Of a stretch of 33,584 nt of DNA, positions 8,449 through 31,285 are shown piece by piece. Under the pieces are notes generated by a model that was given only the letters and a program-made list of their open reading frames with translations, was not told where the DNA came from and did no database searches. The DNA comes from Frankia nepalensis (GTDB taxonomy: Bacteria > Actinomycetota > Actinomycetes > Frankiales > Frankiaceae). Position 1 is the first letter of the stretch. Every line of letters starts with the position of its first letter. Both the position numbers and the translations under genes were made by a program. The stretch is from assembly GCF_016786325.1 (NCBI RefSeq), contig NZ_JADWYU010000174.1, positions 1-33,584 on the forward strand. The letters run 5' to 3'.

Positions 8449-8556
8449 GGGCAGGGCGACCGGTTCGAGCGGCCTGGAGACACAGCGCGGAGGCGGCTGA
8501 CGCGGCCTCGTGCGATGGTCAACGACGTCGGCGCTTCGATGGATCGAAGGAAAACG

Positions 8557-9051
8557 ATGACGCGGATCGACACACTGGTCACGCCCGAACTCGAGGCCCA
8601 GAAGGGCGTGTGGACCGACGAGCAGGCTTCCTACCCTGTGTCGGCCTCCGACATCCGCAGGTGGGCCATCGCGGTGTACTGGGGCGAGACGCCGCCGCGG
8701 ATCTACTGGGACGAGGAGTACGCCAAGTCGACCCGATGGGGCGGGATCATTGCCCCGGAGGACTTCAATCCCTTCGCCTGGGCCGTCCCGATGACCGAGC
8801 CGAGCCCGGCGGGAGCCGTCCCCGGCCAGGAGGCGAAGAAGGGCGAAAATATTCTCAATGGCGGGATGACCGAGAAGCTCGGCGCGAAGATCCGGCCAGG
8901 GGACGTCATCACGACCCGATCCCGGCTGATGCACTGGGAGGAACGCCAGGGCCGTAATGGCCTCACTCTCTACACGTACGTCGAGACCGAGTGGACCAAC
9001 CAGAACGGCGAGATCGTCAAGACCCGTGTCAAGACGACGATTCGCTACTAG
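8557..9051 (+). CDS. MaoC-like / FAS1-type dehydratase N-terminal hot-dog protein
   Basis: Single hot-dog fold protein of 164 residues, resembling the MaoC_dehydrat_N group. Marks are PVSASDIRRWAIAVYWGE, a YWDEEYAKSTRWGGIIAPEDF segment, and GEKL-type core residues GAKIRPGDVITTRSRL. Such proteins usually pair with a second hot-dog subunit to form a heteromeric enoyl-CoA hydratase, as known for ChsH1-ChsH2 in steroid side-chain breakdown. ATG 8557 follows a GAAGG ribosome site; the frame also contains earlier ATGs at 8515 and 8539 with weaker context. The canonical hydratase D-x4-H motif is not visible, so catalysis may rest with the partner at 9234. It lies 108 bp after the lipoprotein gene on the same strand. 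Confidence 0.82.
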   Translation: MTRIDTLVTPELEAQKGVWTDEQASYPVSASDIRRWAIAVYWGETPPRIYWDEEYAKSTRWGGIIAPEDFNPFAWAVPMTEPSPAGAVPGQEAKKGENILNGGMTEKLGAKIRPGDVITTRSRLMHWEERQGRNGLTLYTYVETEWTNQNGEIVKTRVKTTIRY

Positions 9052-9091
9052 CGCCGACCCCGCCAAGGGTTCGCCCTGTCTCGACGCCGGA

Positions 9092-9170
9092 CATGATCGC
9101 CGTTTCTGCCCTGGGGAGGTCGTGACCTGGCCATGTCCGCGACCTCTCCAGGGCACTATCGGCGATCATG
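9092..9170. repeat. Long imperfect inverted repeat between the two MaoC genes
   Basis: Two 31-nt arms (9092-9122 and 9140-9170) match at 27 of 31 positions, around a 17-nt loop. The outer 11 bp (CATGATCGCCG) and the inner block GAGGTCG are perfect, and a GCCCTGG block in the middle is perfect too. It would form a long stem-loop in the mRNA between two genes expected to be expressed together. It could be a mobile palindromic repeat (REP/MITE-like), an mRNA-processing or attenuation hairpin, or a terminator without a T-run. Confidence 0.8.
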
Positions 9171-9233
9171 CGTCGCAGACCAACGTTGACGGTCGAGGGA
9201 CTGGCCGGCAGCGACCTGTTAAGGACCGGTGAG

Positions 9234-9665
9234 ATGGCATACAACGTCTACTTCGAGGACGTGGCGGTCGGCCAGGAGATCCCGGCGTTTCAGCGCAAGA
9301 CCGACTTCATGAACTGGAATCGGTTCGCTGCCGTCAACGACGAGTTCTACTACATCCACATGGATGACGAGGCGGGGAAGGCGGCCGGGCAGGCCGCGGC
9401 GTTCGGCATGGGCAACCTGCGCTGGGCCTACGTGCTCAACGCCCTACGGGCCTGGATCGGCGACGAGGCGGAGGTCCGCGAGCTCGGCATGCAGTTCCGG
9501 GCGATCAACCACAAAAACGATGTTCTCACCACTGTCGGCGTTGTGACCGGGAAGAAGCAGGAGAACGGGGAGAACCTCGTAACCCTCGACATCAATGTGA
9601 TCAACCAGGACGGAGTCAAGACCTCCCCGGGTCACGCGGTGGTGTCACTGCCTACTCGCGGCTGA
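9234..9665 (+). CDS. MaoC family hydratase-like hot-dog protein
   Basis: Hot-dog protein of 143 residues, likely the catalytic partner of the MaoC-like protein at 8557. It starts MAYNVYFEDVAVGQEIPAF, the usual MaoC opening. The region VNDEFYYIHMDDEAGKAAG aligns with the hydratase motif D-x-N-P-I-H, with histidine kept but glutamate where the catalytic aspartate normally sits. FGMGNLRWAYVLNALRAWIG and LGMQFRAINHKNDVLTTVG continue the fold. ATG 9234 follows AAGGA; the frame extends up to 9168, inside the inverted repeat, which argues for the later start. The role is probably hydration of an enoyl-CoA together with the upstream protein. The Asp-to-Glu change may be normal for this subgroup or may mark altered chemistry. 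Confidence 0.85.
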   Translation: MAYNVYFEDVAVGQEIPAFQRKTDFMNWNRFAAVNDEFYYIHMDDEAGKAAGQAAAFGMGNLRWAYVLNALRAWIGDEAEVRELGMQFRAINHKNDVLTTVGVVTGKKQENGENLVTLDINVINQDGVKTSPGHAVVSLPTRG

Positions 9666-9984
9666 GCTCGTGCCATACCCGGCGACGTTCGTCCTGTGCC
9701 CGCGTGCGGCCGTGTGCTCGTCCTGTCCGACGTCACGGGGAATCGTGTCCGACACCAGAGCCAGGACCAGCGCCGTTCGGCGACCCTGATGACTGACAGG
9801 ACGCCCGGGATCTTCCGGGTGTCTGGCACGAGGCGGAGAGGGGTGGCGGGGGTGCCGCTCTGCCCGTTCGTCGACGGGGCAGACATTGCCCGCGGTAGCG
9901 TTGGCCGCGGCGTCCGCTTCCTGCCCGGGATGTTCGTCCGTATGCCGGCGCGTCGGTGAGGCCCACGCGCGGCGCTGTTCTCGG
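9666..9984. other. Convergent intergenic region, 319 bp
   Basis: Lies between the ends of the MaoC and SnoaL-like genes. No gene is supported. It holds the hairpin at 9800-9823 and an 11-bp dyad GTGTCCGACAC in the 9745-9756 region. Confidence 0.4.
9800..9823. terminator. Candidate hairpin terminator between convergent genes
   Basis: GACGCCCGG (9800-9808) pairs with CCGGGTGTC (9815-9823), nine pairs including one G-U, around the loop GATCTT. There is no T-run, as is common in GC-rich actinobacteria. Its place between two gene ends supports a terminator role. Confidence 0.45.
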
Positions 9985-10452: not shown

Positions 10453-10479
10453 CGCGGGCTCCCTCCGTGGCAGTAACAT

Positions 10480-10518
10480 GAGTGCGTACTCGATTTAGAA
10501 AAGTAAGAGTGGTCACTC
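10480..10518. promoter_or_regulatory. Twin operator-like dyads in the SnoaL/TetR divergent spacer
   Basis: GAGTGCGTACTC (10480-10491) and GAGTGGTCACTC (10507-10518) match at 9 of 12 bases and are 27 bp apart. They are themselves nested in an outer inverted repeat, AACATGAGTG (10475-10484) with CACTCATGTT (10514-10523). Two similar dyads in a 90-bp divergent spacer are the expected arrangement for the adjacent TetR protein controlling both genes. Confidence 0.65.
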
Positions 10519-10542
10519 ATGTTGTCAACGGGGGAGGCCGCG

Positions 10543-30818: not shown

Positions 30819-31285
30819 CCGGGTCGGCGCGGGGCAGTCGGGGGCCGGCCTGAAGCGGCGGGCGCGGCGCGGCGCATCAGCCTTTCTACACCGGCCTTCC
30901 GGGCGAACCAGTCATCGGGAGACGGCACCGTCCGGGAAGACGCGCCGCCATAGGGCCGATCGGAGCTAGCACCGCGGCGCCTGGCTCGGCGACGCGACAC
31001 CAGATCGTATACAGCCTCGGCGACCCATGGCGGGAGGAGGCGGGGCGCCCTACGCGCGGTCCTTGCCTGGAGCCGCTCGACGCCTCTGCCTGTGCGGTGG
31101 CCGGTGCAGGTCGCGTGCTCGCAAGATCGTCGAGTGATCTCGTGATCCATCTTGTATGAACTTCTGAACCGTGGTTCACTGAACCGCAGTTCACTGAACC
31201 ATGGTTCAGTGATCTTTTTGGATGGTCTGGACGCGTCGGGATGGTTCTGTATCACCTCCCGCGCGCACCTCTCGGGAGGCAGCTC
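30819..31285. other. Divergent intergenic region, 467 bp
   Basis: Spacer between the TetR and Rieske genes. No gene is supported. It contains the tandem palindrome cluster at 31165-31212, and a TATACGAT-like patch on the minus strand near 31004-31011 that could be a -10 for the TetR gene, though no good -35 is seen. Confidence 0.45.
31165..31212. promoter_or_regulatory. Three tandem TGAACC-GGTTCA-type palindromes, operator cluster
   Basis: TGAACCGTGGTTCA (31165-31178), TGAACCGCAGTTCA (31180-31193) and TGAACCATGGTTCA (31195-31208) follow each other at an exact 15-bp period. The third is perfect and extends to a 22-bp perfect palindrome (31191-31212). The cluster ends 73 bp before the Rieske start codon. 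A dimeric regulator binding three adjacent sites would act cooperatively. The spacing of the AAC/GTT halves (4 bp) differs from the published KstR site (2 bp), so it is not that site. Confidence 0.85.

Follow-up and report, generated by a model that had tools for sequence, protein, structure and literature searches.

The stem-loop found at positions 9092–9170 of the window (the whole 33,584-nt stretch of Frankia nepalensis DNA that was analyzed) is, with high probability, the core of a RUP-like MITE of approximately 151 bp, which was probably moved in trans by an IS630-type transposase. The arms of the inverted repeat (9092–9122 and 9140–9170, 31 nt each) pair at 27 of 31 positions (87%) and enclose a loop of 17 nt. 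This is the longest among the inverted repeats listed for the window at a distance limit of 100. The MFE of the hairpin RNA was −64.9 kcal/mol, compared with −35.9 (SD 3.4) for shuffled sequences (z = −8.5), and none of the 200 shuffles folded as well; the position, arm length, pairing and loop size are all as reported in the first-pass annotation. The hairpin lies between two genes located on one strand and forms only the middle of a longer element, which occupies about 9048–9204. The features of this region are listed below, where G006 is a genome of the same genus.

8515–9051, plus strand: upstream gene with a PF13452 FAS1-like dehydratase region (178-aa reading, a later start is possible)
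9049–9051, plus strand: stop codon TAG of the upstream gene; it overlaps the target site, and the G006 orthologue ends at the same TAG
9048–9051, no strand: probable left copy of the target, CTAG (TA = 9049–9050), identical to the single CTAG of the G006 empty site
9051–9201, plus strand: putative mobile element of family A, 151 bp with TA counted as the duplicated target
9092–9170, plus strand: central hairpin, core of the family-A element, also present in other genomes of the genus
9201–9204, no strand: probable right copy of the target, now CTGG, located by comparison with the G006 empty site
9234–9665, plus strand: MaoC-like downstream gene (PF01575), whose start and preceding AAGGACC are kept in G006 and untouched by the insertion
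9667–9899, plus strand: putative second short element, family D; its left end, CTCG-TGCCATACCCGGCGACGTTCG, is like that of family A, and its right end is uncertain

No Rfam family matched the window at the gathering score. ORFs overlap the element, as expected in high G+C DNA, and no case is made for any of them as a gene. An ATG located in the right arm of the hairpin shares the reading frame of the downstream MaoC gene (9168–9665) and could add 22 N-terminal residues to its product if used.

The insertion was detected by comparison with G006, where the same gene pair is contiguous, 90–91% identical to that of the window and devoid of the element. The G006 junction (...CGCTACTAGCCGGCCACGACC...) has 29 nt from stop to start versus 182 nt in the window, where the junction reads ...CGCTA-CTAG-(element)-CTGG-CCGGCAGCGACC.... 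The net insertion relative to G006 is 153 bp, a length that fits 151 bp plus TA; the insertion would comprise 151 bp and a duplicated TA, the right copy of which now reads TG. The first gene retains its stop codon, the TAG of the target, and the second gene has its AAGGACC and ATG intact.

The joined flanks of 16 other copies were tried in five relatives, and matches across the junction were obtained for loci L008 and L012 only. G004, G005 and G006 clearly lack L008, and G003 lacks it with small gaps; the flanks of L008 are CCAG/TGAG, and the site in the relatives reads CCAG, CGAG or CCAT. L012 is flanked by CTGG/CTAG, and the sites of the relatives are CTAG (G001), TTAG (G003) and CTAT (G005 and G006). 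This third empty site was counted as weak, since only approximately 30 nt of the left flank align, with gaps, and the farther left flank is located about 800–900 bp away in four of the five loci. The claim of insertion stands because the window's own empty site and that of L008 carry it.

An identical target pair was found in none of the empty-site cases, and CTAG-like targets recur among them. The two target copies there are never both intact, so that the duplication of TA is an inference and 2 bp are not distinguishable from 4. CTAG is present at both fitted ends in only one of the 21 two-ended copies described below, and in three right ends CTAG is displaced from the fitted position by one or two bases. 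The tetranucleotide CTAG is generally avoided, and the changes from CTAG to CCAG or CTGG may reflect its decay. As for the target duplications expected of a mobile repeat, the single CTAG of the G006 empty site, compared with the flanking CTAG/CTGG of the window, would fit them, and identical pairs are rare.

Copies of the hairpin were searched for in the F. nepalensis genome, a draft of 398 contigs (10,728,764 bases). A 166-bp query around the hairpin detected at least 40 places, including that of the window (40 of the 111 first-look candidates were scored). When up to two mismatches were allowed, the 19-nt arm pattern matched 86 arms, which are distributed over 55 places; the reversed control yielded no match. 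According to both lists merged, the hairpin is present, in whole or in part, at no fewer than 57 places, many of the copies being incomplete. The aligned copies have about 150 bp in common, with the hairpin in the center, and then diverge abruptly. The start and the finish of family A, CTAGTGCCGGCCCCGCCAAGGTTCGCC and CCAACGTTGGCGGTCGCGGCACTAG, are terminal inverted repeats, and the consensus of these imperfect inverted ends is GTGCCGGCCCCGCCAAGGTTCGCC / CCAACGTTGGCGGTCGCGGCAC. At thresholds set by the analyst, both ends are present in 21 of the 56 loci examined, and the length from CTAG to CTAG, both included, is 156 bp in 12 of these 21 copies. The hairpin core is 77 bp long, and the spacing of its arms is equal in most copies. 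Family A is thus short, non-coding and multi-copy and carries terminal inverted repeats, as is characteristic of MITEs.

Some copies of the hairpin contain other sequences. In L033, L040, L076, L077 and L080 (C316 end, C286 start, C99, C157 and C85, respectively), related sequences (..CTCGCAACACC..) break up the hairpin at or close to its loop; they resemble the terminus of an IS that carries an HTH-encoding gene. In L076, a 57-aa fragment matched HTH_23 just below the cut-off and HTH_8 weakly, and no NCBIfam model matched it. Four of the five interrupted hairpins are located at contig ends, and several draft contigs end inside such copies; near a contig end, L067, L072 and L074 likewise pass into other sequence. 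In addition, about 200 bp of other sequence, apparently a nested short element, is located between two half hairpins in L038 (2050–2480).

The terminal sequences of family A are not restricted to it. With two mismatches at most, the pattern of these ends, TAGTGCCG-N8-AAnGTTnGCC, was found 62 times in the F. nepalensis genome and twice in the reversed control. By eye, the matches represent at least four short families, A, B, C and D. Families B (L185–L190, L192 and L193) and C (L194 and L195) carry the CTAG-TGCCG ends of family A; family D includes L196 and the element at approximately 9667–9899 of the window, and L191 is D-like inside. Several copies of family B repeat an inner CGCGGTCCCTGGCTCGCG module, and the lengths of this family vary. 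The family-D element of the window is 86.5% identical to L196 over 178 nt and can be aligned with L076/L185 (one place), L072, L018 and L191. It starts 1 nt past the downstream MaoC gene, which is therefore flanked by two elements of the mobile type. The scan of the window for the end pattern with up to four mismatches gave three matches (two in the reversed control), namely, both ends of the element itself and a further end at 9668, which belongs to another family; the earlier statement that the window contains no second copy holds true for family A.

The transposase families PF01797 and PF13358 were searched for, and four DDE_3 transposase genes (L197, L198, L199 and L200) were found in the F. 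nepalensis genome. The L198 gene is uninterrupted, and its 388-aa product belongs to the IS630 family (NF033545, 168 bits with a cut-off of 100; PF13358). The ends of this element, CTAG-TGCGCTGTCCACGAAGGTTGGCC and, inverted, CTAG-TGCGCTGACCACGAACGTTCACC, have 35-nt arms with 83% complementarity. They score 14/16 and 13/16 on the MITE end pattern and have CTAG on both sides, so an IS630-family element of the same genome matches the MITE ends, without carrying the exact family-A ends. In L199 (1–1330), an IS630-type gene is split over two frames and adjoins a family-B-like element that starts at CTAG. The L200 gene (also fetched as L298) has one visible end with a score of 11/16.

The search with the L198 transposase in eight genomes of the genus, including that of F. 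nepalensis, gave matches in six. An end with a score of at least 13/16 on the MITE pattern was found in 12 of the 17 transposase loci (14 ends) and in none of the 17 in the reversed control; the 17 loci represent fewer independent elements because several of them overlap. The ends of L298, L300, L308 and L309 score 11–12, and L296 has none. The 14/16 ends are located in two loci, L291 (the L198 element) and L295 (G003). In the latter, the gene contains stops and is only 41% identical, and the single visible end starts with CTAGTGCCGC, as in the MITEs. Likeness of the ends supports an IS630-type partner for the MITEs, with the L198 enzyme as a candidate mover of family A.

According to the mechanism proposed, an IS630-family (Tc1/mariner-type, DDE) transposase supplied in trans would recognize the CTAG-TGCC ends, excise the element and join it to the TA inside CTAG, with duplication of this TA. 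In the window, the target TA would have been part of the upstream gene's stop codon, and for this reason the insertion could leave the two reading frames and the ribosome-binding site of the downstream gene intact. The hairpin would be a consequence of the palindromic make-up of the element, and any influence on the transcript of the two genes, such as RNase III cleavage or altered stability, would be a by-product. Such a regulatory side effect would be possible.

Other explanations differ from this one in the mover or in the role of the hairpin. The same MITE could have been moved by a non-IS630 transposase, for example, by another TA- or CTAG-targeting DDE family, perhaps now lost. The exact family-A end occurs on no IS630 element examined, and other IS families targeting CTAG exist. 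However, IS630 ends agree with the MITE pattern beside the same CTAG in the F. nepalensis genome and in several relatives, and a mover of another family appears unlikely. It is considerably less probable that the 77-bp hairpin is itself the mobile unit, a REP-like palindrome moved by a RAYT (REP-associated tyrosine transposase). Between species, conservation is indeed highest in the core, and many copies of Frankia sp. AgB1.9 and G001 are core-only. Nevertheless, the two-ended copies have inverted repeats, the window copy has a CTAG target, and PF01797 (Y1_Tnp) has no match in the F. nepalensis genome, compared with matches in 5 of 14 in the control set; the REP/RAYT origin was rejected on the latter basis.

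The hairpin could also be a conserved intercistronic RNA element that tunes the ratio of the two gene products by RNase cleavage or 3′-end protection. The control of the subunit ratio through mRNA processing had been suggested in the first-pass annotation. Such a role would suit a very stable hairpin between co-directional genes, and ERIC elements can act so, according to PMC2229807. Stem pairs 21 and 22 vary together in the three genomes examined. At the same time, G006 has the same gene pair without the hairpin, at least 56 other places carry the hairpin in whole or in part, and no intrinsic terminator or sigma-70 promoter was found in 8950–9950 by a simple scan (loops 3–8), a type of search that actinobacterial promoters may not fit. 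In the five copies that AgB1.9 and G001 have in common, the divergence is similar to that of the flanks. The suggested control is left unsupported by the absence of the hairpin in G006 and by this divergence, and the RNA element is a very improbable explanation.

The data on selection come from a comparison of the cores of F. nepalensis (G000, 40 cores), AgB1.9 (51) and G001 (84), with the filter of at least 22 of 31 positions paired. Most stem pairs are simply conserved across copies, and the core keeps its length and sequence. Covariation beyond independence was observed for pairs 21 and 22 in each of the three genomes and also for pair 25 in G000 and pair 23 in G001; pairs 11, 13 and 14 of G000, however, are formed less frequently than would be expected under independence. 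This covariation was not counted in favor of RNA function because the copies were filtered by pairing and fall into subfamilies and because some G000 pairs are below independence. Eight AgB1.9 copies had both flanks in the fetched G001 locus, and six of them were aligned. In the five aligned copies occupied in both AgB1.9 and G001, 346 of 381 core positions and 912 of 1018 flank positions are identical; L154/L239 is also occupied in both species, judging by spacing. Since the cores diverge about like the flanks, stronger constraint on the core is not apparent in this sample, which is small and biased, the G001 loci having been fetched for carrying the repeat.

Outer ends scoring above the control maximum were found in 24 of 40 copies of G000, 9 of 51 of AgB1.9 and 16 of 84 of G001, most copies of the last two being without clear ends. 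The 77-bp core might represent a genus-wide module that is kept as the ends decay, moves or is maintained alone, and serves as a landing pad for IS in its loop, which seems rather doubtful. The one difference observed between AgB1.9 and G001 (L168/L122) was rejected as a core-only insertion, being a messy change of about 269 bp without clear ends.

Matches to the element were obtained within a single genus among the genomes searched. Among the 58 genomes searched, with up to 14 best candidates scored per genome, the element was matched in F. nepalensis and in five of the seven other genomes of the genus; none of the 27 genomes of other genera of the family and none of the 23 genomes of other families gave a match at this depth. 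The arm pattern was present in six of the seven other genomes of the genus, with 194 matches in G001, 15 in G002, 239 in G003, 14 in G004, 8 in G005, 18 in G006 and 0 in G007. The pattern scan of named genomes gave 39 stretches, all from Frankia sp. AgB1.9 (the F. nepalensis genome possibly being outside this set). The matches show a strand bias in G002 (one contig; 13 of 15 on the minus strand) and in G005 (280 contigs; 7 of 8 on the plus strand) and are nearer to even in the other genomes. The alternative offered by the first-pass annotation, namely, a lineage-specific mobile repeat of palindromic type, is supported by the number of places in the F. nepalensis genome, the restriction to the genus among the genomes searched and the empty sites in relatives. 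The search for copies in this genome and its relatives, which had been recommended there, revealed many copies, and the repeat is not unique to the locus.

Elements of this kind are known in other bacteria. The RUP reports describe a non-coding element of Streptococcus pneumoniae with a length of 107 bp, which is present in 108–110 copies and folds tightly (PMC2229807, PMC3049150). They further describe IS630-Spn1-like ends and TA-containing targets, and mobilization in trans was proposed from the similarity of the ends (PMC2229807, PMC3049150). Family A is also short, non-coding, multi-copy and tightly folding, with IS630-like ends and a TA-containing target. In contrast to RUP, it occurs in another phylum, is approximately 151 bp long and G+C-rich and has a CTAG-centered target, as compared by description; moreover, several Frankia families have one end type in common. 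By analogy, family A likely works like RUP.

Correia/NEMIS elements of Neisseria (about 107 and 155 bp) and ERIC elements of enterobacteria (127 bp) are described as having TIR, TSD, TA at the termini and stable RNA stem-loops, and effects of ERIC on mRNA stability are also described there (PMC2229807). By description, family A is similar to both in size, structure and TA termini; effects on mRNA stability are described for ERIC and none for family A. The likeness to REP/BIME consists of many dispersed hairpins and of other sequences, some of them IS-like, inserted in the hairpin. REP hairpins are targets of IS insertion. Unlike REP/BIME, the full family-A unit has inverted ends and a TA/CTAG target, and the F. 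nepalensis genome has no RAYT-type match.

A published account of this element family was not found among the titles and abstract openings of the Frankia literature searched, the coverage of which was partial and constitutes no proof of absence. Family A is a new family within a known kind of element (MITE) and gives rise to long hairpins on a large scale in these genomes; for this reason, additional proof is required before such hairpins in their operons are interpreted as regulatory RNAs. The presence of several short families with one IS630-like end type in one genome would offer a usable natural system for the study of MITE mobilization in trans in actinobacteria.

The window contains two other palindromes. 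The inverted repeat AACATGAGTGCGTACTC / GAGTGGTCACTCATGTT (10475–10523) is located between divergent genes encoding SnoaL-like and TetR-family proteins and is likely a TetR operator, as predicted from its sequence and position. A short palindrome, TCACTGAACCGCAGTTCA / TGAACCATGGTTCAGTGA, with 83% complementarity and a 1-nt spacer, is located at 31176–31212.
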